64,000 nucleotides of DNA from Lactifluus volemus (taxonomy: Eukaryota; Basidiomycota; Agaricomycetes; Russulales; Russulaceae). Shown piece after piece: positions 4,307 to 26,096 of this stretch. A program made the position numbers and the translations under genes. The notes below the pieces were generated by a model. That model did no database searches and was not told where the DNA came from. It saw only the letters and a list, made by a program, of their open reading frames with translations. Position 1 is the stretch's first letter, and each line of letters opens with the position of its first letter. The DNA is taken from positions 62,001-126,000 of the forward strand of contig WTXI01000084.1 of the NCBI GenBank assembly GCA_022376515.1. The letters run 5' to 3'.

Positions 4307-4310
4307 GAAC
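4307..4310. repeat. Giant transposon target-site duplication, left (GAAC)
   Basis: GAAC directly precedes the left terminal inverted repeat; partner at 24814-24817. Confidence 0.85.
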
Positions 4311-4356
4311 ATCAGCAAAATGTCCGAGCAGCTTATTTTTACTTAAACGTACTTAA
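4311..4356 (+). repeat. Left terminal inverted repeat of the giant transposon
   Basis: It starts ATCAGCAAAATGTCCGAGC and continues AGCTTATTTTTACTTAAA. It matches the reverse complement of 24768-24813 with only a few mismatches. Confidence 0.9.
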
Positions 4357-5400
4357 AATTTTTTTTTAAGTACTCTAAGTACTTTAAGTACTTTAAGCTC
4401 TTTTAAGACAAGTCGGCCTCCAGGAATTTGCTTATTTTTACTTAAAATTTACTTAAAAAAACGTCATTTTTAAGTAAATTTAAGTAGTTATAAGGACTCC
4501 ATAAATTCAGCTTTTATCAAGTTTAAGCACACTTTAAGCACTATTTCCAATGCTTTTAAGAGGGTTTAAGTAATGATAAAGTCCTATAAGCACACTTTAA
4601 TCTCCAATGCAGGCACTTCCTATTCATTTAAGCGCACTTTAAGCTCCAACATAGGCACTTCCTATGCTTTTAAGAGCTTATAAGTAATGATAACCACACT
4701 TTAAGCTCAAAAACAGGTACTTCCTATGCTTTTAAGAGCGTTTAAGTTGACAATGTCCTATAAGCTCAGCTTTTTCGAGTGTAAGCACACTTTAAGCTCC
4801 AAAACAGGTACTTCCTATGCATTTAAGTACGCTTTAAGCTGCAAATCAGGTGCTTCCTATGCATTTAAGTACACTTTAAGCTGCAAATCAGGTACTTCCT
4901 AGCATTTAAGTACGCTTTAAGCTGCAAATCAGGTACTTCCTATGCATTTAAGTACGCTTTAAGCTCTAAATCAGGTACTTCCTAGGCATTTAAGTACGCT
5001 TTAAGCTGCAAATCAGGTACTTCCTATGCATTTAAGTACGCTTTAAGCTCTAATCAGGTGCTTCCTATGCATTTAAGTACACTTTAAGCTGCAAATCAGG
5101 TACTTCCTAGGCATTTAAGTACGCTTTAAGCTCTAAATCAGGTACTTCCTAGGCATTTAAGTACACTTTAAGCTGCAAATCAGGTACTTCCTATGACTTT
5201 AAGGAACTTATAAGCGCAACTACAAAAAGATAAGCCCTTTAAGGGCTTCATTAAGGACGAGATAAGTAATCTAAGCTGATAAGAGTCCCACGCTTAATGT
5301 ACTTAGACCATGGTTAAGCTCGCCATTATTAGCACTTTACGGAGCTTAGTCTTCGAGACACTGCTTAGCTTATTCTTTACCTGAACTTATCTCACCCTAG
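4357..5400. repeat. Left subterminal CTTAAA-rich repeats with a 42-bp tandem array
   Basis: The A/T-rich block is dense in TTTAAG/CTTAAA. From 4819 to 5194 it holds nine units of about 42 bp, each starting GCATTTAAGTAC and containing CTTTAAGCT, AATCAGGT and CTTCCTA. Degenerate units extend back to about 4560. Subterminal arrays in cut-and-paste elements usually bind the transposase; here that is inference. No gene is seen between 4357 and 5675. Confidence 0.85.
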
Positions 5401-5674
5401 GCTCTATAAATGTCCCTTATCTAGATTAAGTCAGTATACCAAACCTGCCAAGAACGTGTATGAGAATCGTGAATACGCGTGATCGAAGAGATGCTAAGAC
5501 ATGGCTGGGAGACAGACAGGGTCAATACACCAACGCAACGCATGTCCCCACTAACAAGGAAAGAGGCGAAATCGTAAGTATGAATAAGGCGGAGAACACT
5601 CTGGAAAAAGGGACATCAGCGTGATCAAAAGCGCTTGAAGCAAAAACGAACACGACTCAATACTGTCACCATCT

Positions 5675-7475
5675 CTACTGTACGCCTTCATCATCTGAAT
5701 CAGGAATGTACTTCAACTTCGCCCGAGGATCAGATATTGCAGCAATGTCAACTTCCATTGGCATATCCTCATGGATTGTCGCCTGTATAGCTCCTGTGAT
5801 ATCGCCTTCGCCCGAGCACAAATTTTTTCAACAACGCCAGGGGCTTGATCTTTCAGACATTGAGTATACGCACGCGTTGTCACACCCCAGACACTGTCAC
5901 TGAACGACGTATCCCAGAGGTGCTCAGTGGGCGTGAGCGGATAGTGATTCGTCTTCTTTTGGGAAGCCCTCTCTATGGTGATGTTGCCAAAGGCCCAGAG
6001 TGAATACGCCCGTTCAACCTGACAAAGTACTGAACCAAAGGATTATCAGGTTGAGAGTTAAAGTGCGCACCGCTGCTGCGCATAGGCCAGCCACACCCAC
6101 TGGCAGAAGGTCCACCGGCTGAAGATCCTTCATGCCTCGAACGATATTGAAATGAACAGCAAAGACTTGCAGGAAGTCATTGCCGAAGAAGAGGCCCTTT
6201 CCTTCCTAAACAGTTATTCTGACTAAAGCACCAATACGTTCGTTGGTAATCAGAGTTACGCACCGTTGGTTTAGAGTACAAGAATCGCTGGTCCGTGAGC
6301 TGATGCTGTGCATATGACCGGCAAGCCTCATCCGAAGGAAATGCGTAATCGTTGAAGTAAAACATGGACACAACTTGATTAAGTGCCGCAAAGCCAATGG
6401 CACCACGCCACGAGTCGCTGAGGCGCTGTTGGGCCTACTGAAACGTAAGCGTTCTCCCCACCTTTGCAAGGAAGGGTACGTACCACGCTGTAGACCGGAC
6501 AGTCCGAAACACGAATCTTATATGGAATATTACCATCATATATGGCATTCCAGATGGTTTGCATGGCGTCAACAGCCCTTTTACCTGAAAAACCCCAGAC
6601 GTCCCTCTGGACCGCCACAAACGCAAAGTACGAAGGAAGAAACGATCGGGACCATTGATCGTCATCACGACATCCTGCTGGTAAGTCCTGGATGGAGAAC
6701 GCTCGTTTCCTTTTCGTGTCGTCTTCATCGACATCCTCCTTCCTCTTTTTGGCTTTCCCCTTTTTGCTAGAGTGGCCGAAACTTGCCTGGGGGACGTTGA
6801 CACCAGACGCCGCCATCACTAGACCCTAGATCATATTATAAGTTATAAGTTAAAGGGAGAAAGTGGACTACCGCGCTTGCCAACTGCTGCCCATAGTTAA
6901 CTGGGCTATTCATGGATGGGGGCCCAACGCTGTCCTTCTTTCGGCTGGTGATTCTCCTCTACATCAGTCATCCCTGCCTCACTTGAATGAAGAAGGAAGT
7001 GCCCATCGTCCCCATCGCCATCGCTAACGTTCATTTCCTCTCCGTGTTGCGTCACTGGCAGTTGAAAGTATGTCGTCTCACGTCGCAGTCGACGTCCAGC
7101 AACATGCTTCGGAGTTGCCTCAGGCTCCGTATCCTGGCCGACTGTGAGCTCAAGACCATGAATCCAGTAAGTTTTCACCTCATCGTTGGCATTCCGGATT
7201 GCTGATTGCCGAGCCCGAGTACGCCGTGGTGTGTCGTGCACCATATCTGCCTTTCGAGGTTGAGCATTCGCCTTAGCGGCCTCACGCTGTGGTCGACTTG
7301 TAGGAGTTTGCCTCGCCGAGGCTGTCTGAGGTATCACTTGAACCACTGATCATGGCACGTAAAGCTGAAACATAGGGCGTACCTCTCGGCCTGCGTTGCT
7401 AGTCTCTGGCACTGCAGACCTTTGTCTTTTTGATGCTGAATTTGCCTTGGACTTAGGTGTTTTTGTTTTAGGCAT
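5675..7475 (-). CDS. DUF6532-like protein A of the transposon, multi-exon
   Basis: The likely start at 7475 gives MPKTKTPKSKANSASKRQR. The first intron has donor GTACGC after GRE and acceptor ATGATCAG. The next exon (about 6906-7340) is low-complexity and charged. The core (about 6440-6819) carries a Lys-rich stretch, then DLPAGCRDDDQWSRSFLPSY, then VWGFSGKRAVDAMQTIWNAI. Further exons (about 6040-6371) hold NDYAFPSDEACRSYAQHQL and LQVFAVHFNIVRGM. The gene ends ADPRAKL-like then YIPDSDDEGVQ with a stop at 5675. This layout matches a widespread family of unknown function in Agaricomycetes that I know as DUF6532. Function is not known. It is a paralogue of the gene at 11646-14027. Exon borders are approximate and small lesions cannot be excluded. 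Confidence 0.65.
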
Positions 7476-7499
7476 TGTGAGCGGATGAAAAAAGCAAGG

Positions 7500-9040
7500 C
7501 AATGTCACACAGTTGGAGCAAAAGTCGACGTCGTGTTCGAAACTGCCACGCGCACAGATTGGCTGCGCACGGACCCTGTCCGCTTACGTCAGTTTCGCTC
7601 CGCCAACACCTACTCGATCTAAGGATAAGAACTCTGAAGCACTTTAGCGACCTTAGCCAGCTACTTAGCCACATAACCTTGCTTGCATTACGTTGCTCGT
7701 TCTGCTTTGTTTTGTGACATTCACCCGTCTTTTGTGGTTACTCCGCAGCATAATCTATCTGGTTCTTAAAGGAGGGCTGTCTTTTTGCCAAAGCAGGCTG
7801 CAGCCGCTCTCGGGTGGCTCTCATTGGTCGGCGTGGGGTCGTGCACCTGACCGGTCACGATCTGCAGCCTGTGTCCAGGCTGTCGCCCGCTGGTAGCCCC
7901 TATCATCATTCACCGCGTCTTCAACCTTGCTGTTCATGGCAAGGTCGCATGCCACACACTCCTTCACACTGCCGCTCTCCGTGCTGCTCTCATGGGTCGG
8001 AGTGGAGCACAGCATCTGACCTCAATGCTGTCTTTTTACCAAAGCAAGATCTTCGGTCCAACCGGCACTTGACCCGTGAACTGCCTGCGTTCATGAGGAC
8101 GTCCCATGCTCACTGTCGCTCGCTGTCCATTATCGTCGCTTTCATCATCATTCTGTGGCTCTTGGTGGCCACGCTGCAGCCGTGGCGACCCGGTCAACTC
8201 AGGGGTGTAACGTGAGTGATCCCCATCCGCAACGTTCCATATATTCGGTTTACTTTCTTATCCTTCATTGGCGAACTCAACTTCTTCCCACCTCCATCTC
8301 CTCCGTCGCCTGTTCCCTCATCGCATTTGCCAAAGCGGGCTGCAGCCGTTGTCTAACTTCTTCCTGTCCCCAGTCAAGATTTAGAATGACTTGAAATATG
8401 GCCGGGAAAATGTTTCAGCCACCCAGGCAGGCGGCACCAGTCAACGCGGGCTGCGGGCGGAACGCCAGAATGTAATCATTGATTATACAGTTCGTCGCAT
8501 CGTTTTCTCTGCCTTACTTTTCGACAACTTACAATCTCAGTGCTTTCTCTCTCCCCCTGTCTCCTCCTCACGTGTGCTGTCTCAAAATGGCAGTTGGGGA
8601 AGCACTTTCTTGCGGATGACATCACTGATGGCAAACTTCGGACCCCTCAACTGCCTCATTTGGTCGTTCCTCACTTGGCCGTGCACCTCACTTCTTCCCA
8701 CCTCCATCCCCTCCATCGCCTGTTCCTTCATCGCGGGACAGTTTGCAGCCCCTGTCGGCGGGCTCTCATTGGTCGGCGTGGGGTGCAGGAACCGTTCAAG
8801 ATCCGCAGACCCTGAGCTCACGCTGTGGCTCGACTCTCGCGCAAAGGATCCGCACACTCTGGCCGACGTTGTGGCCAGGTGGCCCGTTCGTTAAAGGAGC
8901 CAGCGCGGGGTCGTGCCCAACGATTGACACATTTCTACACCAAACGTCGTTATCATAAGATCAAACATCCCGGTAAAAACAACACCTCTCAATATCAAAA
9001 TGTCGCAAACGAGACCCTCCCACTGAAGATGTTTTGTGAC
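7500..9040. other. Noncoding block with internal repeats inside the transposon
   Basis: No convincing gene is seen. Two motif blocks recur. ACTTCTTCCCACCTCCATC and its flank occur at about 8279 and 8691. CTCATTGGTCGGCGTGGGGT and its flank occur at about 7818 and 8765. GCCAAAGC(A/G)GGCTGCAGCCG occurs near 7786 and 8330. The open frames here are shadows of these GC-rich repeats. Confidence 0.5.
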
Positions 9041-9049
9041 CTATTACAG

Positions 9050-11058
9050 TCACCCCACTCTGTTTCTACATGAACCGTCAACGGAGAGGAAATCAAGCTG
9101 ATGACTGGTGAAAGAACGGGTAGCGCCATAGACAGAGAGACGGTGGGGTTGACCATCAAGCAGTTGAATGATTAGTCTCTGACTGGCACGAGGAGCAAGG
9201 ATACAGCGGAGGCGATTGGCGATGTAAGACATCCTGCACAACGAACTTGGACGTAATGAATGCATACCACCAATTCAGCTCAGGGCCAGAAAGGACCCTC
9301 CGTGGGCTGGGACCGCGGCTGGTATAGTCAGCTTGACTTCGTTGTCAGGCTGGAACACACCGACGCCCGGAATGAGGGAAACGAAGGAAAGTATGGTGCC
9401 AAGATAGTCCAAGACCGGAATCTTGCTCTCGTCGCCATCATATAAGTGATTCAACACCTTTGTCACGAGACAAGATACCACATTGTCAAGCATCTCCGTA
9501 ATGGGTACATCCGTCTCGACGGAGTGACGTACAGCGACGGGGCCCTGTAGAGTGGCCACACGCTCCGGATCCTGATCGAAGACGGCTTCGATATCCTCTG
9601 ATGGCCAGAGAGAATCCTATATGAGATCAGCTTTTTGCTTCGCCCGATCATGATACATAATACATACTTTTTGAACCACACCTCAAAGCCATCATCTAAA
9701 ATTGGAATGAATGGCACGGACTTTTGGCCGGAACGCTGCGTGATATTGAGGAAGTATGACTTTTCTTCGTGGGCCAAAAGCTGTTCCCTGCAAGAGGATA
9801 CATCTCAAAGAAAGTGGAGACAAAGGTGGACGGCTTGTCAAGGAGTGTTTAAGTGAGGTTTTGGGCCTGCCACCGTTGACGCCAGCAAAGGCTCTTCGAC
9901 ACGGTGCAACCAGTCTCCTGTGAGGTTGTGCAGAGAGACATCGGGCCAGCGTCCCTCGTGAACAACGTACATAAACCGTATAAGGCGGTGCACAACCTCC
10001 TCGTAAGTCATATCGCTAAGATCTTCGACAACGCGGCCCTCCTTCTTCACCGGGAACCAGGGCTTGAAGTAGTCGGCGTTGAGCCTCTTGATTACCTCTG
10101 CACGGCGCTCCTGGGGCCAGGCGCCACGCTTCTCGTGAGGAAGTTTAGAGACAGAATCATCGTACCCTTTCCAGAGCCTGAGAGCGCGGTTGTTGACTTT
10201 GTGAATGGGTTCTCCCAGCTCCGAGCGCACGGTAATAATGCCACCAGTGTCTCTCGCATATGTGCCCTGCCATTGCGCATCATCAGCACCCGCAGCGGCA
10301 ACAATGAGATCCTTGACTGAAGATGAGGTGTGTGCCTCCTTAGCGACGATGACGCGGGAGCCAAAGAGGAAAACGTCGAAAGGGATCGATTCTACACCGA
10401 ATTCCTTCGACCAGTCCCGAAAAAGATATGGCCAAGTGTCTTCCGAACCACCAAAGCCGGAGCCGGCCACAAGGGTAATGTTGCGGATAGTTGAATAGGT
10501 TGCGAGGATAGGCTGATGAAAGTCCTCGAATGACTCGGAATGAGTGGTGACCATCAGCACGGCCACCAGTCCGTTGCAAAATAATGGCGAAGTCAGGGTT
10601 AGCTGCCGCAATGTTGACGACCTGGTGGATGCCATCGACAGAACCGGGCTTGAATGCGACATAGCAGATCCCAACGGACTTGAGACCAGTTATGATCTCA
10701 GAGGCGTTCGTGGTCAGTATGCCAGCTGCCACACAGAACACTTCTATAGGAAGGCCCTCGTGGTGCATCTCCTGCCAAGGGGTGTTGGAAAGAGAACTGG
10801 CGAGGATTGATGTAGAGGGAGTTGAGGGTCAGACCAATCCCTGGAAGAATTTTGGTCTCAACCTCGGCAACTTTGGCGCGAAGGGCTGCTAGGGAGTAAT
10901 GTCCGCCACCAGCAAGTTCGACGTGATACCCAGCTTGAAAGACAACAGAGACAAAGCCCGCCTTGACAGTGGTAAGCGTCATGCCAGTAACCATGATCGG
11001 GGGCTTGCCGACAGATGAGAGAACGGCGTATCGATATAGATTTTGCCATCACCGCCAA
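9050..11058 (-). pseudogene. Fatty acid synthase beta-subunit fragment (enoyl reductase to dehydratase region)
   Basis: Fungal type I FAS builds long-chain acyl-CoA in the cytosol. Read on the minus strand, this segment follows the beta-subunit order. The enoyl-reductase entry (KPPIMVTGMTLTTVKAGF, then YHVELAGGGHYS and LTLNSLYINPRQF) is followed by AAANPDF, SFEDFHQPILATYSTIRNI, ITLVAGSGFGGSEDTWPYLF, FLFGSRVIVAKEAHTS, GTYARDTGGIITVRSELGEP and MTYEEVVHRLIRFMYV. Lower down lie LQGPVAVRHSV and a LYGAARS-like piece. The frame shifts several times, so it is a dead fragment. It ends near 9050, roughly where the second fragment (19230-22490, plus strand) begins in FAS order. Sequence from 11058 to 11640 may hold further upstream remnants that I could not assign. 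Confidence 0.85.
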
Positions 11059-11645
11059 AGTTGTCGGTAAGTGGGATCACAGGCCATGGAGGGATGCACC
11101 ATACCTAGTATTGCCTGACAGGGAAGTATCCCTCAGCCATCCCGACGCCCCTCCAACACGTGTGTTTCCAAACCGAACGGGACGTTGTATGTAATGACAT
11201 GAGATGCTGTTGTTGGTGTTATTGGCGTGTGCGTAGTGCGGGGCGGAGTAAGTGGCAACGGTGTTGTAAGACGGCTTTGGGAGTTGCGGAAGACATTGCG
11301 AATGGCGAGCGCGTCCGGCATGCGAAAGAGGCGGAAGTGGGTGGCAATGACTGTACAGATGGTAAGAACGTGTGTTGCATGGTCGTAGCCACTGCCAATG
11401 GCATCCCGAAGCCATCAATGAGCACGAGTGCGCCGCGCGGGGTTGGGTAGCCTTCACAAGAGAGCGCCTCGACACCGCGCCAACGGCGACAGAGTTGAGG
11501 AGTGGTATGCATGTGCCGTGGGAGTAGAGAAGGTAAAACAGGCGGGGTAGAAGCGAGGAACAGAGGCATATTGGATCAGAAGACGTGGAACGAACAGCGT
11601 AGCAAATCCATTTCATTGAAGGTGATTATATAAGCGCAGAGGATT

Positions 11646-14027
11646 CTACATTACGGACAACGCGGACAACTCGGAACCTTCATTATCTGATTCTTCGAGA
11701 GGAAGAAACGGGGCCGCAGGCTGAGTGGTTTTGGTTGACGAAGCTTCAGTGTTGCTCACACTACGTGTGTCCTTAATATAGGGCGGGCTTTCTCAACGAT
11801 GTCCTCGAAATCTTTGCCCGTCAACCCAGACATGCCTTCCCGAAAGCGCTTCGATTCTCCGCCCCAATTGACCATAGAGAAAAAAACGTATTTGTTAGAC
11901 TCAACAAGGGTGGTTCCACTGATCATGGGCTTGAAATCCTTGGATTTCGGGTCACCGTGAGCTTCTTCAAGAGCCTCAATCGTAATGCATCTTTCGGCCC
12001 AAAATGAAAGCGCTCATTTACACTGCAAATGGTCTATATCAGGCCTTTGAAAGAGACGCTCAGAATGAAAGGCTTACAGCAACTGCCGCAAGGACGATTG
12101 CAGCATAGGGGCGCCCGTTGTCGGTGATGTCGGGGATTATATCTGAACCCGGACTGCAGTGAGATAAACGGCAAATGTTTGGAGGAAGAGTGGTCCACGG
12201 AATGGAAGCCTGACTTTCTGCAAAGCGAAGTCAAAACATAGAAGCTGAGAGAGAGAAAGCAGAAAAACCTTGACATGGCCAGCAATCGTTGTTGGAGGGC
12301 CATAAATGAACTTGTCTCGTTTAAGTTGACCTTGGCAGTAGGCTTGACGCGTTTCATTTGAATTGTATTCATCTTGGCTGTTGAGAAAGTTGTTTAGCGT
12401 CATGAACGCTGTCGATCCAAATGGAGCACGCCACGAATCACTGAGGCATTGGTCTATCTGCTACAGTAAATGAGGTTAGAAGGCAAGACTCAAAAAGAAA
12501 GAAAAATATGCACAGAAGGGAAAATGCGGGAAATGTCTTTCTTCGCGCCCCAGATATGCTCAACAATGCGTTCGGCCACCTGAAAGATGATCTCACTTCC
12601 CCCCAAGGACCAGCAATCATCCTGACACCCAGCCCAAAGGTAAAGCGTTGGCATGAATCGTTTTTTCCATCGAGGGTCGGACAACAAAGGATCGTTTTTT
12701 TTTTCCGCCTTTGTAAGCCCCCCTCGAATTGATTGCTTGTCGTTCTTCACTTGAACGATTGCCTTTATAAAAATTTATTAATAAGAATCTGAAATTCCGG
12801 AAGAATGTTGAAGTTGTACTGACATCGCTATTAAGCCGACGCTTGCCTTTAGCTGGGGAGGCACGCGCACGGGCCTGTTCAGGGCCAACCCTCTCATCTG
12901 GGTCAGATATGCCGCCATAATTGGAAGTAGGTTTGACATGAACAATAGCTTGAATTGCAGAGCGCCCAGATGTGGTGGCCGTAGAGGGGTGCAAAGCTGA
13001 AGAAGCATGTGAGCTGTGGCCAAGACTGGGCAACCTTGTGTTCTTGGCAACGAGCCCGCCTCCCAACGCGGACGTGTTTGTCTTTTTGAACCACTCTGAG
13101 AGGCGATCAGATTCGGTAGGGCCATCCCTGCTAAGATTAAAATAGAAGAGTGTAGTGGGATCGAGGGTGAATATCGATGTCATTTGTGAAACGATCCGGA
13201 AAAGAAGTCAACGCAGCGAAAGAAGTCAATCACGAAGCCAATTGTTTGTCGATGTTGTTACGCACCTTGCTCTTTGAGCGACCTCGCGCCTCATTTCGGA
13301 TTCCTCAGGTTGAGGCTCCATTGGCACCGACTTTGTCTTTTTCGATGTCCGTCCTCCATCACCCTTTTATGCATGTTCAGTGTACAATAAAGAGAATGAA
13401 CATCTGAATACTCACAGAAACCCTGGATCGTTTTTCTGATAAGCGCACAAGAGGCGTTGCAACCTCATCGATGTTGTAATCGTCGACGTCAACTCGAGCA
13501 GCCTGCTTGATGTGTTCAATACCCTCCCGAATTCCCCTCTTCCTTGCCTTGATCCTTTTCGTCGTCCCAATGTCAGAAATTTCATCAGCTGTGGATTCAT
13601 CTGCCATGGCCACTTCCTCGTCCGTTGCACTTTGCTCAGTGCTAGGAAACCAATCCTCGGGCTCGGGTACTGACATCGTAGCCGGATATGGAGTAACTGG
13701 GGTCGCAGGTGCCTTGTCATGGGCCGTTTTGTTGGTAGGTGGTTGCAGATGTGGCGTGGTATCCAGTGCGTATTCTGCTGCTGCCTGTTCCTCCATTTCA
13801 GCTAACCTCGCCATAGCATCGGCTGCCGCCTGCTTCTTTCGAGCCTTCTCTTGCGCCTTGGCAACTTTTTTGGCCTGAGCCTGACCTTTTGGCGCCCTGG
13901 GGGTTGCCACTAGTCCTGCGTTCACGGCTGGGCGAACGTTTTTGCTCGAGGCTCGTGTACGAATGCCATCGTAGTCCTGGGGAGTTTGAACCCCATCAGG
14001 CTCAAGTTGACGACGTTTGGGTGGCAT
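11646..14027 (-). CDS. DUF6532-like protein B of the transposon, multi-exon
   Basis: The start at 14027 gives MPPKRRQLEPDGVQTPQ. A long first exon (to about 13400) is rich in Lys, Ala and acidic residues, with a likely coiled-coil stretch (AKKVAKAQEKARKKQAAADA), and resembles a nuclear N-terminus. The core exons hold PRWKKRFMPTLYLWAGCQDD, then VAERIVEHIWG, then a SDSWRAPFGSTAFMTLNNFL-type segment, LKRDKFIYGPPT and LQTFAVYLTAV. The last exon has SGTTLVESNKYVFFSMVNWG, FREGMSGLTGKDFEDIVEKA and ends in an acidic tail (EESDNEGSELSALSVM, stop at 11646). The design is the same as the gene at 5675-7475. It is transcribed away from the transposase, with an intergenic region shared from 14028. Function is unknown. 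Confidence 0.68.
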
Positions 14028-14389
14028 GCGGGAGTAGTGTGCTGTAATGGTAAGGTCGCACGGAAGACGCTAGATGACTTGTCGTTTTTTTTTTTTCATG
14101 GACTCGTCACGTGTCATCCAGCCCGCCTGCTTGACGCAAAAATGTTCCTAGGCTTTTGCCACAACAATGTAAGGTAGACTCAACGGCTGGGCTCGAGATC
14201 TGTCACTTTTCGTCATCTTCGACTTCGTGCCTGCCCTCAACAAACCCCGGCTCGATTTGGACAATTTATTTTCAGTTTATCTCAACATCGCGTCCTCGAT
14301 CCCGACGCTTTCCAATTGCTTCGAGATCGTCCGACATCGACACCCGTATCTCACGACTACGTTTACCCTCTCCAATTTTATTTTTCTCG
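14028..14389. other. Upstream region of the DUF6532-like B gene
   Basis: No gene is recognised. The stretch separates gene B (minus) from the transporter fragment (plus) and probably includes the gene B promoter. Confidence 0.4.
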
Positions 14390-14775
14390 CTCATGCAACT
14401 GAGCACTTTTTTCTGCCTCCCCGAGGGCGTTTTCGCTACAACCACATTCGTCACAGGGATTACGCTAGCTGTTACTGGCTCATATCTTCAGACCTCCGTG
14501 ATTGCCATAGCTTCCCTCTTCGGGCCAACGGTCATCCAATCTATGCTGTCAGGACAGGCGGTGGTCGCCGTCACCCTCTCCGCCTACAACTCATCAGGGC
14601 GACCACCTCGCTATGTGCCTCGAAGTCGGCCTCCCGGATGGTGTCGCTGAGACAAAGTCCGCAAGGTTATTTTTCGGATTTCTACCACATTTTTGATCAT
14701 GTGCGGAGCTGCTAATGTCTGGATGACGCGGCTGCCTTCATATCGTGCCATCGTGCCGTGCGATGCGCCATGGAT
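14390..14775 (+). pseudogene. Equilibrative nucleoside transporter (ENT/FUN26-like) fragment
   Basis: Two frames together give an ENT-like stretch. The first has AVTGSYLQTSVIAIASLFGP and then SGQAVVAVTLSA, the conserved transmembrane 4-5 region of fungal ENT proteins. The second, after a frame change near 14600, has FRISTTFLIMCGAANVW then MTRLPSYRAIV. There is no start codon in context and both ends are missing, so this is a captured fragment, not a working transporter. It lies between the divergently transcribed DUF6532-like gene and the transposase. ENT proteins carry nucleosides across membranes; nothing suggests that role here. Confidence 0.72.
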
Positions 14776-15104
14776 ATGTAGACAACGGAGGTACTCCTTT
14801 TGTGACTCAGGTATTTATCGTAGATCTTTTGTTAAGTGGATAATGTAAGAGCATCCAATAAATCCTTCATCAATTTGGATCACATTGTTTGCTTAAGAAA
14901 TCAGCCTCGTTCTTGTCCTTCTTGTCTTGGTTGATCTACAATTCATCCCGTTTTGTCCTTACGCTGCGTTCTAGTTCCAAACGCCTTGTGCCCCCCCGTC
15001 CCGAATCGTCCCGAATCGTCCCGCAGGTGCCCTCATTATTCTGGTACTTCTCTGTCTTTTGAACTCACCCGGGCTCCCAGGAGCTCGTACAACAAGTGCT
15101 GACC
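14776..15104 (+). promoter_or_regulatory. Presumed transposase promoter region
   Basis: No coding sequence is recognised. A pyrimidine-rich stretch and a short direct repeat (CCCGAATCGTCCCGAATCGT, about 14999-15020) lie upstream of the transposase start. The promoter role is inferred from position only. Confidence 0.35.
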
Positions 15105-18100
15105 ATGGATATTTCTTCTCGAGAACCTATGCTTCTGAACCCAGAAACGGCATCCCGCATGCTTTTACCGTGTCCTCAAGATGGTTGCAATCGCTGGTTT
15201 GAAACCAACCAAGGCCTTAACTATCATGTCAATCACTTTGGGCACTTTCAGCATCCTGGCATCGACGTTCCTCTTCCTGCCAACCATGGCCATGGAAGAG
15301 AAAGGATACTGTACTTTCTGAACTTACATGTTACTGCGTGATGTTAATTGTTCCTTCATCAGGCAGCCTCTCTCTGGGACTGATGATTGTAGTATGGACT
15401 CAGATCCACCTAATTTCCTGTATGCGTTCCCACTCAATTCCATTTGAAACTAGTTCTCACGAAATTTCAGGTCACCTAGACGCTCTCCGAGCCCTTTCAG
15501 CATGGTGCTGAGCGTGCCCACGCCCCCTTCCCCCGTCCCAAATGATGACTATGATCATTCCTTTGATCCAGATGTTACTTTCCCACATGACCATGGATTC
15601 AATCACGATGATCCAGGACTACTAGACTTTGAATTTGGTAACAATGACATTGAGGAGTTGGGTAATGATGATGACCTGGGGCCGCTTGAACTTGACAATA
15701 GCGATGCACGACTGCAGAGAACTTTCCCTCTACTTTCTGCAAGCCCAACATCATCTGAGCGTAGTGTTGTCTCACAGTTGCCGGGCCCTCATTCACCACA
15801 TCTTGCCGGGAATACCACCCTCACTTGACAGGTATGTAACTGACTCGGAGAGCTGTCTTCAGTTAAACTTATGAGCCATTTCCACAACTAATACGAAGGT
15901 GTCCCAATTACACATGACATTCCAGGACGTCTCACTGAATCACAGTCCCTTCATGCCTGGGGTGCTTTTCAGGATCGTATCGCCTTTGAGCTTGCAGATT
16001 TTTTATATCGCCAAAACCAGATGTCTGCAAGTGATATTGACTACCTCCTCGCACTCTGGTCTGCTACCCTGGCTCCTCATGGTGGCGCACCCCCATTTCC
16101 CAACCACCGTGGTTTATATCAGGTTATTGATGAATCTTCTGTGGGTGACGTAGGACAGTGGGATTCTTTCACTGTCAGTTACCATGGAGTGCCAGAAACA
16201 GGGCCATGTCCATCATGGATGCTCGCTGAACATACTATCTGGTTCCGAGATCCTGTAGCTCTCGTTCGGAGTCTGATTGCTAACCCCAATTTTAATGGCG
16301 AATTTGACTATGTCCCATATCATGAGTACGATGACGCCAATCAGCACCGCTTCTCTGATTTCATGTCAGGGGACTGGGCTTGGAGACAAGCTGTCTGTAT
16401 CTACCATCTTTTCTCGGGAGTCACGACACTGAAATTTATTGCTTATTTAGGATGAAATTGCTCATGATTTGACCACGCATGGTTCCTTTTTTGTTCCGTT
16501 AATTTTAGCAAGCGACAAAACTACCGTGTCTGTCGCAACAGGTAACAATGAATATTGGCCCGTGTATTTGTCCCTTGGCAACATCCATAACAATGTCCGC
16601 CGAGCTCACCGCAATGGAATCGTCGTCTTGGGATTTCTTGCCGTTGCAAAAGGTAAGCCCCGACTTGAGCTCCGAATATGCGCCTTCCTGATGCTGACTG
16701 ATCTTCATTTCGAAGCCGAACAGCAGTTTTCTGAGGATTCAGATTTCTGCCATTTCAGACGGCAACTCTTCCACACCTCATTAGCCCAAATCCTTCTACC
16801 TCTGCGTGATTGGATGTCCACCCCTCGGATTGTTCGGTGTAGCGATGGCAAATTTCGTCGTGCGATTCTTGGACTTGGCCCATATATAGCCGATTACCCT
16901 GAACAGTGTCTTCTCTCCAGCGTTGTACAAGGATGGTGCCCCAAGTATGAGCTAGGCTAAGTTATTATTTGCACTCTGATCAATTCTTGATAGATGTCTT
17001 TCACCACCAGAGGACCTTGGCAGCAACGAAATCACTCCACGAACAAAGGACCATACCGTTTTTGTTGCCGAGAATTATGATTTGTCGCCTGCGTGGGACA
17101 ATTTCGGCGTGATTGGGGACATTGTAGTATGTGCTTTATACTCAACATCTGACATAGCATTACTTTAAACTCTTCCTTGTAGCCCTTCACAGAGAGCTTC
17201 CCTCGTGCCGATATTCACGAGCTCCTTTCGCCTGATCTATTACATCAACTCATTAAAGGTACATTTAAAGATCACCTCGTGACGTGGATTGGAGAGTACT
17301 TGGAGCTATCTAATTCGAAGCAAGAAGCCAAGAAAATCGTGAGCCAAATTGACCGACGGTAAGGGTTGTACAGCTTCAAATGACGATTCATGGATCTTGA
17401 ATGTTGTACCAGGATTGCCATTGTTCCTCCCTTCTCTGGTCTTCGGAGATTTCGCCAGGGTCGTGGGTTTAAACAATGGACGGGCGATGACTCTAAAGCT
17501 CTGATGAAGGTGCATCTGCCTTATTTGTTGTGTGGTAGTTGCTGATGCCATTGTTTCAAGGTTTATCTCCCAGCGATCGAAGGATATGTACCTGACGATA
17601 TGGTCTGCACGCTGCGTGCCTTCCTTGACTTTTGTTACCTCGCACGGCGTAACGTTCTTGATTCGGAAAGTCTCAGTCAATTGCGTGAGGCACTGCATCT
17701 CTTCCGCCACCACCGCACTGTCTTCGAAACGACCGGTGTACGCTCCGAGGGACATATCCCCCCCCGCCAGCACTCTATGGAACACTACCCAAAAGCCATC
17801 CGTGATTTCGCGGCACTCAATGGTCTGTGCTCGTCGATCTCAGAATCAAAACACATCAAGGCTATCAAGGAACCTTGGCGTCGATCCAATCGATATAATG
17901 CATTGGGGCAAATGCTTGCGACAAATCAACGTATCGATAAACTTGCCGCTGCTCGAGTCCACTTTAACGATAGTGGGATGCTGGAGGGTAATATCGTCGA
18001 CGCTTTGATGTCTGATTCATCTGGTGGGGTTTGTTCTGCAGATCCCTCATTTCCGCACTCATTTTTGTTAAATGCAGCATCTGAGGATGACTTGGTTGGG

Positions 18101-18889
18101 CCTGTAAGAAACGAGGCCAAAAGTGATGACTCAGAGTCTGACAATGGGGATATTCCGATTAAATGCACAAGACCTTCGATTTCTCTGTCGGCAAAACCAG
18201 TTCGTACGTCCCTCAATCTCTGAACTTATTACATCTAGCAGTACTCACAATCTTTTCAAGAAAGAAACGTTAGTGTATCCGATATTGCTAGACCGCATCA
18301 TCTCCATACCCTGATCACGGAGTTTCTTGAACAACAAGAGCTCTTGACCCCCATCCCCAATTCGTTTGAACCACTCATTGCCATATATCCTTCTGCCAGG
18401 GCAACCTTCTATGCTCCGAGCGATATCTGTGGTGTTGGCGGGATGCGCAGGGAATTCATCCGGGCTTCATCCACCTGGAGAAAGGGTGTTGGCCGATTTG
18501 ACACCGTATTTATCAAGTTGGACAACCAAGAGCGTGGAATGAGAGACCTTGGTGTTGCACGGCTTCAGTTGTTATTTTCCTTCCGTTTCCTCAACACAAT
18601 TTATCCATGTGCGCTCATCAATGACTTTCATGTTGTTGGTGATCAACCAGACAGGAATACCGGCATGTGGAAGGTCAAGCGCGCAGTTAATCATCGAAAC
18701 AGGCGTCCGATCTTGCGTGTCATCCACTTGGCCAGTATTATCCGTGCAGCACATCTCATACCTGTTTTCAAAGATACATCGCCCGTCGCTGATGATGAAA
18801 CTCCTGACACTACCCTTGATACTCGCCGCCGTGGACTTTTTTATGTTAATAAATACATAGATCACCATGCATTTGAGATTGCATTCTAG
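15105..18889 (+). CDS. Plavaka-type transposase, multi-exon
   Basis: The start ATG at 15105 gives MDISSREPMLLNPETASR, then an N-terminal C2H2 finger (CPQDGCNRWF ... HVNHFGH). An acidic linker (about 15502-15828) follows. The transposase core runs over exons at about 15900-16455, 16469-16960, 16995-17120, 17185-17360, 17410-17510, 17556-18223 and 18263-18889. Marks are ILASDKTTVSVATGNNEYWP with its first catalytic Asp candidate, YIADYPEQCLLSSVVQGW, ADIHELLSPDLLHQLIKGTF and SSISESKHIKAIKEPWRRSN with the Glu candidate. Introns are short, with GT-AG ends. Members of this family move by cut and paste through a DDE RNase H fold. I saw no stop inside the exons I could trace, so the gene may be intact. 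It is the only mobility gene in the element. Exon borders are approximate. Confidence 0.85.
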
Positions 18890-19229
18890 GATAATGACTA
18901 CCATAACTACATGTCTCTACACCTCAAAACGTTGAATTGACAATACAAAAGCATCAGTCGACAATCTGGCTCGAGTCGCTCTCCCCGTGCGAAGCGGCAC
19001 ATGGCCATTTGACACAAATGCTCTTTCACGTCATTCTCAAACACTCGCGCTTTCTTTCCCACAGCAATGTCACCTCCGCCGGCCATATTGTCCTCCATGT
19101 TATGAATTCTGCACTCATCTCCTCTAAGGCTGCCAACTGTACCGACGTCTTCGTCCCGGTCGCATTGGTCGCTCAGTCAAGGCGATGAATGCCAAGGCAA
19201 TCCCGTCATAACCTACCTTCAACGGCATG
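18890..19229. other. Spacer between the transposase and the second FAS fragment
   Basis: No gene is recognised. It should contain the transposase terminator and the junction to captured FAS sequence. Confidence 0.4.
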
Positions 19230-22200
19230 GATCAGCCAAGTCGGCACCGATCCCCCTTGCTACCAAATATCATCTTACTTAAAGCGCAAATCCTTCCATC
19301 TACCGTGCACCAACCACCAACGAACCTTATTCAAAGGTCTCGGGGGACTTTAACCCCATTCACACGAATCCTACTTTTCCTTGTACGCATCATTGCCGAT
19401 TACGATGCGCCGCTACTCAGCGCTACATGGAGACTGTCGTGGCCTTGGGCATCCGAGATCGCGTACACAAGGGAGTACACAAATTTCTTGATAGAGGATG
19501 ACGGAGACTTACTTCCTTCTAGTTACAACGTCAATTTCGTCAGAATGGTCCTTCCCAGAGATGAACTCACCGTCGGAATCAAACATACAGCTATGCACAA
19601 TGGCAACTTTGTCGTCGGTGTTACCACCATCAACCAGCACGGTGAGAAGGTTCTTGAGGGAACTGCTGAGGTCGCGCAGCCGCCCACTGTCTATGCATTT
19701 ACCGGCCAAGTTTCGCAGGAGCAGGGTATGGGTATCGTGCCGTCTGGGCCTCTGCCGACGCACACTTAATCTCTGCCTATGGATTTTCTATTGTGGAAAT
19801 CGTCCGCGAGAACCCTAAGACGAAGACCATCCACTTTGGTGGATTCAAGGGCCAAGCCATCCGCGAGCGATATATGGAGATGACCCATAACACGACAGAT
19901 CGATGGCAACATCAAGAGCCTCCTGTTGTTCGCTGATATACACGTCCGCACCCTTCAACACAACTTCATTCATCAAATTGGTCTTCTTTTCGCTACCCAG
20001 TTTGCGCAGCTTGCCCTTGTCATTATGTCGCATGCTCGAGGATATGCGCTCGAAAGGCTTCATCCAGCATGACACCGCTTTCGCTGGCTACTCGCTGGGT
20101 GAGTTCTCTGCTCTCTCTTCGGTTGCTGATATCTTGCCCAGTTCCCTTCTCGTCGATGTCGTCTTTTACCGCGGCCTGACTATGCAGCGTGCTGTCAAAC
20201 GTGACGAGCTAAGCCTCTCGAACTATGCCATGTGTGCCGTCAATCCCAGTCGTGTTAGCCAGACGTTCGATGATGCAGCCCTCCGTGAGGTCGTCGATAC
20301 TATCTCCAACGTTCAGAGACTGCCTATTGGAGATCGTGAATTTCAACGTCGAGGTGCGTCACCATTTTAATGGCTACTGATCGGTACCAAGGCCAACAAT
20401 ATGTCTGTGCTGGCGAGCCTGTCGCATTGCAAACTTTGACGATCCGTCACGAACGTCCTCAATTATCTCAAGGTGCAGAAGATCGATATCACTAAGGCAT
20501 GTATCCTTAGATTTCTGGCTATTCATTACGCTCACAATCACAGTCCCGCTGACCGAGAAATTTGGCCTCGCTAAAGTTAAGGATATGATGAAGGACTTCG
20601 CCAACAACTGCAACAACCATGCCCTTAAAAAGCAAAAGACCGAAGCTTATATTGTGCTTGAACGCGGTCTCGCCACCATCCCTCTCACAGGCATTGATGT
20701 TCCCGTTACCTCTGGTCTGGCGTCATGCCCTTCCATGCATGTGAGTTTAGTTTCGCTTTTCGCTCTCGCTCAATCTAAGTGACCCTTCAGACCTATCGAA
20801 GAAAATACCATCTACTCCCAGGGATCTGTCGCTTCATGAAAGTGTCTATATCCCTAACTCAATCGCATCGCCCTTCGCCGTCAACAAAGCCTATGCCGAA
20901 CTCATCTATAAACCATACATCATCTCCACGGCTCTCGAAAGTTCTTCGCAAGTGGGATGAAGAACGCTGGGATGCCCCTGAGCAATGGCAGAAGCTCGCC
21001 TCAGTTCTGCTAGTCGAGCTGCTATCTTACCAGTTGCTTCTCCCGTGCGCTGGATCGAAACCCGAGATCTATTCATCGGACAGTACAAGTTTGAGCGCTT
21101 CATCGAGATTGGCCATCCCCAACTCTCACTGGTATGGCCGTACGTACCCTCAAGGCCAAATACGAGGCGAAGGATGACTCAACTAGCGTTGTCCGTCGAG
21201 GATTTTGTGCTTCAAAGCATCAGAAGGAGATCTATTATTAGTTTGAAGGTGAGATTGAGGCAACATCTGAACCAGACGCAGCCAGCGAAACTGCCCTCCA
21301 GCACCCTCTTTCCACTGCCAAACGTGCCAGTCGTGATTTCTACCGCTACTCCAGCTGCCGCTTGTCCTGCTGTTGCCATCGAAGACACCCTGATCTGTGA
21401 TGTCGACATCCTTGCTGCGATTGTCTCTCAAAAGTTAAGGAAGCAACTCAGTGAGATCCCTCCCTCCAAGTCTATAAGGGATCTCTGTAACGGCAAGTCG
21501 ATCCTTCAAAATGAGATTATGGGCGACCTTCAGGGCGAATTCTCATCTGCGCCTGACAAGGGCGAGGAGCTGCCGGTCGAGGAACTTGGCGCTTCCCTTG
21601 CGTCTGGTCACTCCGGCAATCTCAGAAAGTATTCCACTAGTCTCGTGTCGCGTGCCATTGGTGGCAAGATGCCTGGTGGTCTCAATATCTCAAGTGCAAA
21701 AGCTCACCTTTCTAGGAAATGGGGCTTGGTTCCCCAACGCGCCGACGCCGTGCTACTAATTGCTACCACCACGGGAGCCTGCCAAGCGCCTGGGCTCAGA
21801 GGCCGAGGGCAAAGCCTGACGATATTGCGCGTGAGTACGGTGATACCTACATCGATGTTATCCAGCCCGTTTTTGACGCGTCGAAGGCCCGTAACTTCGA
21901 CTCCCTGTGAAACTGGGTTTGTCAAGATGCTCTCATGTCCTACGATATTCTCTTCGGCCGTCTCACTACCGTCGACTGTGAGATCACTCATTGCCCGTTG
22001 TATCACCATAATGAATCACGCAGCCCTGATCTCATTAAATTTATGGAGTTTATGGTCAACTGATGCGACACCTCAAAGGGTGAGACAGACGTAACTTGGT
22101 CAAGAACTCCTCGACAATTGCCGTGATGTCGTTGGTCAGCCGCTGTTGCATAAGGACGGTGAGGATTTCCTATTAGACCCATATACGCATTTCTCATACA

Positions 22201-22490
22201 CTTCTTTAGTCACATTCTCCACAGCGTCTCGCGCCGAGATCACTAGAGAAGGATGACATCGTCTCCTCTGGGGTCAACCGGGAGAACGTACGCAAAGCAG
22301 AGGCGTATGTGGAGGAGATGGCCAGTGCCGACTAGACTTCTGGTTCAGTCAACAGTCAAAAGATCCAGGATGACGTCGTCAAACTCTGGAACGCCATCAA
22401 GTCTCAATCAGAGATCAGTGAGAAGCAGAAGGACCGCATCAAGACCCTTTATGCTGTCAACTGCCCGTCAGGTCCGCCATCGCGTCCAGA
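19230..22490 (+). pseudogene. Fatty acid synthase fragment: dehydratase/MPT end of beta running into alpha N-terminus
   Basis: The order follows fungal FAS. A hot-dog-like region ends LEGTAEVAQPPTVYAFTGQ (about 19700). YGFSIVEIVRENPKTKTIHF follows at about 19780. The malonyl/palmitoyl transferase site is [15 protein letters not shown] near 20090, where family members usually have GHSLGE. Then come [32 protein letters not shown], a KFERFIEIG stretch and, without a break, alpha-subunit sequence: LAAIVSQKLRKQLSEIP, KSIRDLCNGKSILQNEIMGD, SRAIGGKMPGGLN, then a decayed stretch to about 22490. Direct beta-to-alpha continuity suggests a source gene with fused subunits. Frequent frameshifts make this a pseudogene. 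It faces the opposite way from the fragment at 9050-11058. Confidence 0.85.
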
Positions 22491-22539
22491 AATTTCGCGT
22501 TCGACCCATCGTCTCCCGCGTTTCGCGACTTCACATGTG

Positions 22540-24356
22540 CTTGATTATGACATATCCGAGATCACCGTCGTTGAGCCCTCCTCTCCCTCAAAGGTCCCTT
22601 CGTCATCATCACCCCCAGGCACCGCCAAGTCAGACACATTCCAAACAACTTCACGAGTCTTGGAGCAGACTTCCACCTCCGCCGTTCCGGGCGTATCTAC
22701 TTCCCTGTCGACGGCGGATGAGAAAGTGACGCTTGATATACGGTGGACCGTACTTTGCGACCTTTTCTTGGTACTCATCGCAGACAGCGTGTATGATGCA
22801 AGATCGCGCGTTCTACTTGAGATGGTCGCCATCTACCTTGGCTTTGGGTGGCTGGACTTTGTCAAGTTTAAACAGAGAGTGTCGGAGGCACTCGAGATTC
22901 AGGAGGGCATCGAAAACATGGAGCAACGAGAGATTATTGAGAGCCGGCAGAAGTCCTCGCGAAAACGAAGGTACATGATGGTCGGTTTGGCGACGCTCGG
23001 TAAGTCTTTTGTTTCCCTTCGCTCTCGTGATCTATGCCAATTTGGTTTGCCAGGGGGTGGTCTTGTAATCGGATTGTCAGCAGGACTACTCGCACCGGTA
23101 ATTGGAGCTGGCCTCGGTGCGGCCTTTACAACCGTCGGCATATCTGGAACAGCTGGCTTCCTCGGCGGCGCAGGCGGTGCTGCGGTCATTACAACTGGAG
23201 GCGTTTTGACCGGGTCCAGTATAGCCGCCTCAGGCATGGCGCGGAGAACTGGGGCGGTCCGGACATTTGATATGCTGCCATTACACAACAACAAGCGAGT
23301 CAACTGCATTGTCACAGTGCCAGGGTGAGCCCCTGCACCGCGTTCTGGACAGGGCCTCCATTCATTGTTAACCGCTCAATGTCATTTTACGTTAGATTTT
23401 TGAATGGGCAACTGGACGACCCTCGCTTGCCCTACAGTGTCCTAGACCCCGTTGTAGGGGATGTCTTCAGCGTTCTCTGGGAACCCGAGATGATCCGTGA
23501 GACCGGAAGTGCGCTGCGAATAATGACGGCTAAGGTTCTCTCACAAGTTGGACAGACTGTCCTGGCAGCCACTGCCATGATGGCGCTCATGAGTGCGCTG
23601 CAGTGGCCCATCAGTAAGCGTGTTCCCTTCTTATTCGCGTCTTTCCTCGTAGATCACGCCACCTCGTACAGTCCTGACCAAATTGGGGTATTTGATCGAC
23701 AACCCCTGGAACAATGCGCTCGATCGGGCCAAAGCGGCAGGCAGCGTCCTTGCGGACATTCTCGTTCAGTGCCACCTCGGCGTCCGACCAATTACACTCA
23801 TTGGGTTCTCTCTCGGAGCACGGGTCATCTTCTACGCTCTGCTAGAACTCTCGAAGCAAAAGGCATTCGGTGTCGTACAGGATGTCTTTTTACTGGGAGC
23901 AACCCTGTCCGCTTCCCGAAAGAATTGGTTTCAAGTACGCTCCATCGTTTCGGGTCGCTTCGTAAACGTGTTTGCGCGCAACGATTGGGTATTGAATTAC
24001 CTTTTCCGTGCGACAAGTGGCGGTGTCGGGACTGTCGCTGGCCTGCATCCCGTGGAGAATGTTCCAGGGCTAGAGAACGTCGATGTCACTGATAAGATCA
24101 CAGGACATACGAGTTACCGCATGTTCATGCCGCTGATATTGGATCAACTGGGTTTTCCCGTCTCAGCTGACCACTTTATGAGCCTGAGGTGAGAGTCTGG
24201 GTTTAATCTGAGTTTTTCCGGAGTCACTTAGCCTTGCAGGAACCTGATTTTGAAGAAGACCGCATTGTGGTTCGCGAAGGGGAGGAGGTCCCAAAGAAGG
24301 GTTGGTTTTCAACAAGAGGGAAACCGTCCGCACCTGTTGTCTCGATCACCACTTAA
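22540..24356 (+). pseudogene. DUF726 (TMCO4-like) alpha/beta-hydrolase gene, captured and 5'-truncated
   Basis: Five exons can be traced: about 22540-22999, 23054-23324, 23396-23613, 23672-24188 and 24240-24356, all with GT-AG introns. The protein has an N-terminal helical part (YDARSRVLLEMVAIYLGFGW), then RKRRYMMVGLATLGGGLVIG, and Gly/Ala-rich membrane segments. The hydrolase core follows, with VNCIVTVPGFLNG and the nucleophile motif GFSLGARV. It then runs DVFLLGATLSAS, FARNDWVLNYLFRAT and VDVTDKITGHTSYRMFMPLI. Just before the last intron one T seems missing (HFM instead of HFYEPE), which shifts the frame. The last exon in the ancestral frame still reads PEEPDFEEDRIVVREGEE. The usual N-terminus is absent and is replaced by FAS sequence. 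The stop codon lies in the terminal repeat. Family role (lipase-like membrane protein) is known only loosely. Confidence 0.85.
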
Positions 24357-24767
24357 TGTACTTAAATTCTGCTTAAAATGTTCTAAGTTACATGTGTTGC
24401 TTAATTGTCACTTAAAACATTTGGTTGACTCCTTACCGGTTGTGTCTGTTTTCTTAAATTTCACTTAAAACATCCGGCTGACTGCTTACCAATTGTATCA
24501 ATTTGCTTATTATCACTTAGAACTTTCAGTTATCTTAATCTCCACTCAATGTACTTAAATTCTGCTTAAAATATTTGGTGGACCTCTTAACAGTTGTATC
24601 TGTTTGCTTAATTTCCACTTAAAACATCTGGTTGATCGCTTACCAGTTGTATCGATTCGCTTAATTATCGCTTAGAACTTTCAGTCCGCTTAATATACTT
24701 AAATGTACTTAATCCTACTTAAAAAGCAATTTTAAGTACTTTTTAAGTGCTTTTTAAGCGAGAATCT
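24345..24767. repeat. Right subterminal CTTAAA-rich repeats of the giant transposon
   Basis: Two diverged units of about 190 bp share CAATGTACTTAAATTCTGC (24347 and 24540 areas), CACTTAAAACAT, TTACC(A/G)(A/G)TTGT and CGCTTAGAACTTTCAGT. Their sequence differs from the left array but the CTTAAA theme is shared. Confidence 0.8.
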
Positions 24768-24813
24768 TTAAGTGACTTTAAGTAGAAATAAGCTGCTTGG
24801 ACATTTTGCTGAT
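24768..24813 (-). repeat. Right terminal inverted repeat of the giant transposon
   Basis: On the minus strand it starts ATCAGCAAAATGTCCAAGC and continues AGCTTATTTCTACTTAAA, mirroring the left end. Confidence 0.9.
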
Positions 24814-24817
24814 GAAC
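24814..24817. repeat. Giant transposon target-site duplication, right (GAAC)
   Basis: GAAC directly follows the right terminal inverted repeat. Dropping one copy and the element restores the interrupted reading frame. Confidence 0.85.
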
Positions 24818-25156: not shown

Positions 25157-26091
25157 TGTTACGGTTATGCGGGCCGCCCGGCCCATTTCTTACTGTTTTC
25201 CGTTTGATTTTCGACTTGTGTTGTGACCTAGGATCCCTTTCCTTGGCCAGCCCCCTCTGTTCCGCTTCTAGGGGCTGTGCGTCGCCGTTTTGGACGTGTA
25301 TTTGACTCAGGGATCATGACTCAAATCTTGAGTCAGCGTTCTTGACTCAGATCTTGAGTCAGACGCACTGAGTCAGTTCTTGAGTCATCAGAACTGACTC
25401 AGGTCCTTAGTCAATAGTCTTGACTTCGCTACTGTACTGTGACCTTTGTAGGATAGTTGGCTGGCCCTCTGTACACATAAATAGGGCCCTGTAGACGAGC
25501 TGAAACCCCAGCTTCAGCTTCATCTAGAATCGCAGTTCATTGTCTCCTGCTCACACTCGCATCGAGTCTCTTCCTCTCTTCTTGTGAATCCCCTCTTCGT
25601 ACCTTGATCTAGGTACTTTGCGCCACGATCAGACATCTGTGAACTTGTTCCATTTCCGTACAACAAGTCCCCAGACGCCTGAACCCTAATACGAATGCGC
25701 TGTGAGAAGTAGTCCCCACTTCTCACCCCGCGTCCGCCCTCGAACCTTAGTTCAACCTCTCACGAGTGTCCTTGGAAGGCGAGCATCTCTTGCATTCCAA
25801 TTACACTCGCGCCCGTGTTGCGGTTGAACCTACACATCGTCATTAACCCATCTGCCACCGTCTATCCCTTTTGGGAACGGTAACTCCGACCATCGCGTGC
25901 GCCGGTCTGCTAGTCCGTCTCGCGCGATACAGACACCCAGAGTTCGCACAGTCAAGTCTACTCCACACAGGACCTTGCCTGCGCGTGCTAGAATTGATTA
26001 TTTGGTGTTGCTAGTCTTGTCCGACTCGCCACAGCAAATAGCCAACCAGAACGACGCTCACTTCGAGCCACGGTCCCTGCGAACCGTGACA
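25157..26091 (+). repeat. Solo LTR (935 bp) of a different retrotransposon
   Basis: It starts TGTTACGG and ends CCGTGACA, and is flanked by the perfect 5-bp duplication GGGCT (25152-25156 and 26092-26096). Inside, TGACTCA-type sites recur between about 25310 and 25420. A TATA-like CATAAATAGGG lies near 25477 and a pyrimidine-rich leader follows, which favours plus orientation. No internal retroelement genes remain, so it arose by LTR-LTR recombination. It is unrelated in length and sequence to the 480-bp Gypsy LTR. Confidence 0.9.
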
Positions 26092-26096
26092 GGGCT

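Follow-up and report, generated by a model that had tools for sequence, protein, structure and literature searches.

The 64,000-nucleotide stretch of Lactifluus volemus DNA analysed here (the window, part of contig C612 in the 62.4-Mb, 628-contig draft genome of this milk-cap mushroom) contains a complete PlavakaB-type DNA transposon of 20,505 bp at 4310..24814, identified from its paired termini, from empty sites and from a second colinear copy. Comparison of these sequences makes it highly probable that this transposase-encoding element took up fragments of host genes and kept moving while loaded. A sequence-only reading of the window had proposed a segment inserted as one unit at 4311..24813; the single unit is borne out, and each end lies one base further out. 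Coordinates are window positions unless a contig (C-number) is named. In the similarity searches of the genome with the element, 40 of 77 and 39 of 117 candidates were scored, so that the resulting counts are lower bounds; the same holds for the loaded copies found (two complete and one partial), given the terminus listing and the candidate scoring.

The termini of the element read CATCAGC...GCTGATG, at 4310 and 24814. Repeat detection and the count of the terminal 27-mer delimit the left inverted repeat, which starts CATCAGCAAAATGTCC, at 4310..4357 (plus strand) and the right one at 24767..24814 (minus strand). Inverted repeats of about 46 bp had been proposed; they are present, and measure 48 nt with 90% complementarity. 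At up to three mismatches the genome contains 128 occurrences of the terminal 27-mer, 64 per strand, and none of the reversed control pattern, a difference far beyond chance. Inside the left repeat, repeat detection reveals a subterminal region of approximately 42-bp tandem repeats rich in the TTTAAG motif (4358..5320, inner boundary approximate). According to repeat detection and junction reading, the right subterminal repeats (24336..24766) start a few bases from a captured DUF726 gene piece.

The target-site duplication is AA, at 4308..4309 on the left and 24815..24816 on the right, as read from the flanks and from the single AA of the empty sites. Across 17 inverted terminus pairs, the window element included, the duplication is 2 bp long in 13 (one of which, C334, is also readable as 8 bp), 3 bp in two (C390 and C301) and absent in two (C179 and an element nested in the C390 copy). 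Because the family pairs mostly show 2 bp, the duplication is taken as AA and the element as 4310-24814. The 4-bp GAAC duplication proposed earlier is ruled out by the 13 pairs with 2 bp and the two with 3 bp, together with the single AA in four empty sites. The letters GAAC are literally present on both sides: the AA is preceded by a G (the last letter of the element, or the flanking G) and followed by a C (the first letter of the element, or the flanking C).

The element interrupts a Gypsy retrotransposon, and flank searches identify six related Gypsy copies (C334, C29, C157, C502, C524 and C571) in which the two flanks meet with a 2-base overlap. In all four copies that were fetched and read (C334, C29, C157 and C502), a single AA is followed directly by the right flank; for C524 and C571 the overlap is seen from coordinates only. 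These empty sites, which the sequence-only reading had suggested looking for, indicate that the 20,505 bp entered the Gypsy copy as one insertion. As a separate observation, the Gypsy beside the element is also broken by a different repeat: from 25157 onward (25157-26092, continuing) the right flank is 97-100% identical to many loci, and its matches to C477 and C116 span 936 bp at 94-96%. Another member of the terminus family lies inside a Gypsy copy at C33:37115-43397, and the uninterrupted form is found near window position 1391, seemingly another empty site.

A second complete copy, 27,260 bp long, is present at C390:84435-111694. The whole element is colinear with it from end to end, with the cargo in the same order, and the search for paired termini enclosing the same cargo thus gave a positive outcome. 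Seven blocks align between the two copies: of the five longer than 1000 bp, one (4760-7875) is 95.9% identical and the others 97.8-98.6%, and two short ones reach 99.0% and 99.4%, the repeat-rich 4473-4759 being excluded from the count. The extra length of the C390 copy is due to insertions, one of which, 2,296 bp long, belongs to the same terminus family and lies within a predicted intron of the transposase gene. The target-site duplication of the C390 copy is GAG, as opposed to AA at the window copy; no homology past the termini was found in the stretches compared, and the flanks have a single 40-bp stretch in common, at unrelated positions. The presence of the same loaded element at a second site, with other flanks and its own duplication, therefore indicates that it moved as a unit, as had been claimed, and makes a mis-assembly very unlikely. 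A third copy, C477:1-1051, matches the left end of the element (98.4% over 686 bp) and ends at the contig edge.

The element encodes a Plavaka transposase at 15105..18889 (plus strand), in agreement with the type of transposase proposed from the sequence. Pfam PF18759 matches two open frames (E 1.5e-27 and 1.4e-56), and an exon model with GT-AG introns placed by eye gives a predicted core of eight exons at 15895-18889. This core (873-876 aa) is open and shows three departures from the positions that are at least 97% conserved among 120 listed relatives. Homologues number 2522 among 7995 candidates scored, PF18759 is found in all 120 listed, and an Amanita protein is 59% identical. The C(2)C and H(3)H motifs correspond to C308-x2-C311 and H516-x3-H520, which together with E540 are 98-100% conserved among the 120 listed relatives. 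Furthermore, a zinc-finger-like C/H pattern can be read by eye near 15171-15250, with no match by any tool.

PlavakaB elements of Agaricomycotina are described as having CATCA..TGATG ends, 2-3 bp duplications and a Plavaka transposase (Kojima 2025, PMC12730594). The 20.5-kb element has the 5'-CATCA..TGATG-3' termini, duplications of 2 bp (AA, window) and 3 bp (GAG, C390), with 15 of the 17 family pairs at 2 or 3 bp, the PF18759 domain, and the C(2)C and H(3-4)H motifs between the second D and the last E, where the choice of the catalytic D residues is putative. Its ends, duplications, transposase domain and motifs thus match the PlavakaB lineage, and the assignment rests on these features.

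The load includes pieces of three host genes, as the sequence-only reading had recognised. Two match a fatty-acid-synthase (FAS) gene on C589: piece 1 (9077..11089, minus strand; the PF08354 region) matches C589:79494-81536 at 89.7% and is inverted relative to piece 2 (19182..22456, plus strand), which comprises the acyltransferase and acyl-carrier-protein region, matches C589:78598-74998 at 89.0 and 86.1%, and has one internal deletion of about 260 bp. Six frames of this host gene were scanned: one gives no match, and the domains in the other five are of FAS type and follow the order of the gene, starting with FAS_N, continuing with the acyl carrier part and ending with a reductase-like domain. 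The nucleoside transporter piece (14345..14789, plus strand) matches C556:1100096-1100686 at 94-100% (94.2% over 397 bp and 100% over 57 bp), and two host frames there match Nucleoside_tran (PF01733). The DUF726 piece (22547..24333, plus strand), shorter at both ends than the host frames, matches C90:63293-65081 with 16 mismatches (99.1%). Over its 1,787 bp the latter match stays colinear even where the host gene changes frame at what look like introns, which suggests that the pieces were taken up as DNA. Six junctions, inspected by eye and without statistics, show no long homology. Across the FAS/DUF726 junction, frame listing and junction reading give a 330-aa stop-to-stop frame (22336..23328, plus strand), a possible chimaera.

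FAS-like sequence is also scattered over many other loci of the genome (C589:43847-46739, C599:13581-16472, C619, C233, C625, C146, C20, C207, C79 and others), with the longer matches 83-89% identical to the element. Two fetched loci (C589:43847 and C599:13839), nearly identical to each other, contain no frame of at least 180 aa over the match. Pieces of the fatty-acid-synthase gene seem to have been dispersed through the genome. In addition, C589:40318-50000 and C599:10320-20000 are 99.87% identical over 9.7 kb, and the assembly may contain both haplotypes in places.

The captured pieces differ markedly in their divergence from the host genes. With the host gene as outgroup, changes common to both copies represent either changes in the element before the copies separated or differences between the true donor and the present host gene. 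Such common changes amount to 190/2613, 67/633 and 156/2003 (7.3, 10.6 and 7.8%) for FAS, 16/393 (4.1%) for the transporter and 6/1787 (0.34%) for DUF726. The difference between FAS and DUF726 is far beyond sampling error (Fisher P 1.7e-45). Because the pieces differ in this way, the data suggest successive captures of different ages, with DUF726 the last, shortly before the copies separated; at least two and probably three separate capture occasions would be involved. The host pieces may have been copied in during repair of breaks inside the element, by template switching to other loci. The element would be cut out at its CATCA..TGATG ends by its own transposase and pasted elsewhere, as in other CACTA-clade elements.

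The substitutions that separate the two copies are strongly directional. Among 484, 373 are C/G in the window and T/A in C390, and 55 are the reverse. At CpG sites, 315 of 2246 window cytosines read T in C390 (14.0%), compared with 58 of 7760 at other cytosines; in the opposite direction CpG is again highest, with 31/1666 (1.9%). When polarised by the host genes, private changes number 133 in C390 (54, 12, 36, 21 and 10) versus 28 in the window (8, 3, 4, 10 and 3). Owing to this CpG-to-TpG bias and the excess of private changes, the C390 copy looks like a methylated, dying copy, and its later decay would have proceeded by CpG-specific C-to-T change, as expected of methylated DNA.

Besides the loaded copies, many small elements share the termini. 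Of the 128 termini, 115 were located by two pattern listings together with a similarity search (13 were never listed); 92 of the 115 form 46 inverted pairs less than 30 kb apart, both loaded copies included, and 23 stayed unpaired. Thirty-nine pairs are under 3.5 kb, followed by single pairs of 3.6, 4.6, 6.3, 7.4, 12.4, 20.5 and 27.3 kb; apart from the two loaded copies, 40 of 44 measure 2.1-3.6 kb. In five members compared with the 20.5-kb element (C135, C33, C11, C116 and C607), the sequence shared with it is at most about 145 bp long on the left and 125-140 bp on the right; C116 has also an 89-bp stretch of 73% identity. Consequently, the long pairs C33 (6.3 kb), C11 (7.4 kb), C116 (4.6 kb) and C607 (12.4 kb) are rejected as further cargo elements, essentially only their ends matching. 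C33 aligns as an element of the 2.9-kb type split by insertions, and the C607 pair contains a second left end inside. The middle of the small element C135 matches other family members, with no obvious host gene among the matches listed. The transposase gene measures 3.8 kb and would not fit within pairs below 3.6 kb, so that the 20.5-kb type is the only transposase-bearing one found with these ends. It is a plausible driver of the terminus family, and its transposase probably also moves the many 2-3.6-kb elements.

Several points weigh against the reading of a self-encoded, repeatedly mobile carrier. Two of the 17 terminus pairs have no target-site duplication. In the transposase gene a TGA stands in frame at 15826-15828, the exon model covers the core and not the N-terminal exons, and its introns are predictions placed by eye at GT-AG. 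The ages assume that the present host genes are the donors, and a lost or different FAS paralogue would make the FAS capture look older. Movement is read from sequence comparison; mobilisation of the small elements by the window transposase is something that we infer, and capture by template switching is borrowed from other systems.

The in-frame TGA and the N-terminal exons outside the model also fit an unlikely alternative that nevertheless retains some weight, in which the element is non-autonomous now, both copies having been moved in trans by another PlavakaB transposase, with the cargo as passive junk. The transposase of the C390 copy has two new stops in addition to the nested element, and the ratio of amino-acid-changing to silent differences in the two internal genes described below is no different from that in the captured pieces, as this alternative would have it. 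Against it stand the open core of the window transposase, with its conserved residues kept, and the state of the other transposase-like loci, C43 and C86, which in the stretches fetched are partial and about 90% identical (39 of 117 candidates scored).

The element further contains two genes that resemble each other, both on the minus strand and both present as NCBI gene models: gene A (P0123, BGW80DRAFT_1463801) at 5678..7475, DUF6532-like below the Pfam cut-off in a Pfam scan, and gene B (P0121, BGW80DRAFT_1255837) at 11759..14027. Two DUF6532-like genes had been predicted; the genes exist, and the label is below threshold, as one matches DUF6532 at 18 bits versus a Pfam cut-off of 24 and the other has no Pfam match to it at E<=1. 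Of the 77 candidates in the genome search, 40 were scored, and among these the two genes have matches in the window and C390 copies only; three exon stretches were checked in the C390 copy and are free of new stops and gaps. These observations would suit a carrier of selected genes, Starship-like in effect, in which genes A and B or the FAS/DUF726 chimaera help the element or the host. Such a role appears improbable: amino-acid-changing and silent differences number 15:15 in genes A and B versus 46:27 in the captured pieces (P 0.27), a small sample in which purifying selection is not evident, the captured pieces are truncated, and stops interrupt the FAS2 and DUF726 frames checked in the C390 copy. 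As a tentative extension of the preferred reading, a mobile Plavaka carrier could accrete host DNA in layers of different age that record the order of capture and could mobilise the small-element family, with genes A and B being genes of the element (for example helper or anti-silencing functions) rather than cargo; this is somewhat less likely than not. As a side observation, another public data set contains P0122, on a JGI contig of 6184 bp; it is related to gene B at 98% identity, a hint that a different strain or sample also has the element.

A segmental duplication, in which recombination would have placed a copy of a 20-kb block with old termini on C390, is very improbable. The left flank of the C390 copy does recur many times along C390 (C390:66652-245822) and also on C603 and C116, at 77-93%, which speaks in its favour. 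However, homology stops at both termini in the stretches compared, the duplications differ (AA and GAG), the flanks are unrelated except for the 40 bp, and the window insertion has empty sites; this explanation is therefore rejected. Mis-assembly or chance juxtaposition, with the assembler joining separate elements and host pieces in a repeat-rich region of a 628-contig draft, has a negligible likelihood and is rejected, since the same order and junctions occur on another contig at about 98% identity with decay of its own and the empty sites fit a single insertion.

Studies of DNA transposons that capture several genes have mostly concerned plants, and many of the carriers lack a transposase; in basidiomycetes, Helitrons are a route for moving blocks of DNA. 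The comparisons that follow are limited to the available text of the cited sources. Some PlavakaB families carry a captured TET/JBP gene (PMC12730594). The window element is like them in ends, duplication length and transposase, but its load consists instead of fragments of three different host genes and a pair of related genes, and no TET/JBP Pfam match was found among its open frames scanned. Tgm-Express1, a 5.7-kb soybean CACTA element, carries fragments, exonic and intronic, from five host genes (PMC1947982). Both belong to the CACTA clade and carry pieces of multiple host genes; the soybean element is from a plant and is described at one locus, and the available text of that report mentions no transposase of its own (PMC1947982), whereas the window element has a transposase core. 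A soybean F3'H allele harbours a putative autonomous CACTA of 20.5 kb, of the same size class and clade but in a plant host (PMC2613891). In the red alga Chondrus crispus, enlarged En/Spm elements of 16-20 kb contain 4-5 open reading frames; clade and size are alike, and the extras are described there as open reading frames, not as captured host pieces (review PMC6431247). In Pack-TIR or Pack-TYPE elements, host DNA lies within terminal inverted repeats and is sometimes amplified by transposition (PMC8277862, PMC8903248), and template switching during gap filling has been proposed for capture by animal Pack-TIRs (PMC8277862). The window element likewise has host gene DNA (the C90, C589 and C556 pieces) between terminal inverted repeats, but Pack-TYPE elements are described as non-autonomous, whereas the predicted transposase core is retained and open here. 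Starships, of 42-606 kb with a tyrosine recombinase, have lately been reported in a basidiomycete too (PMC13066641, PMC12134995). They resemble the present element as mobile cargo in fungi; the latter is smaller and has a Plavaka transposase (PF18759), and no Starship tyrosine recombinase captain is found among the Pfam matches of 27 open frames and five further queries, shorter frames not being scanned.

The literature search, with most subscription papers outside its coverage, found no report of a Plavaka element with pieces of several ordinary host genes. None is described in the available text of PMC12730594, PMC8290104 and PMC9674265, and the searches on gene capture and giant transposons turned up PMC12730594 as their sole Plavaka paper. 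The earlier hint of novelty is upheld to this extent and qualified by the published TET/JBP-carrying Plavaka families, 16-20 kb algal elements and five-gene soybean CACTA, as far as their available descriptions go. What is new here is a PlavakaB element whose transposase core is open and whose load comprises several pieces of host genes, apparently of different age; it is not a new class. Its load moved along with the element in a manner similar to that of gene-carrying plant transposons. Since this fungal element of a little-studied lineage combines an open transposase core, two loaded copies, recognisable source genes, empty sites and age layers in one genome, the order of capture, and whether capture occurs during or between moves, become directly testable. 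Alongside Helitrons and Starships, Plavaka elements would be a further means by which 20-kb blocks move in basidiomycetes.

Among minor observations, an Rfam search for known RNA genes in two C390 stretches beside the second copy and one C449 stretch gave no match at the gathering threshold. Two segments inside the element, 7760..8918 (from the genome similarity search) and 11092-11400, recur at many other loci of the genome and are possibly small transposons nested in or captured by the element.

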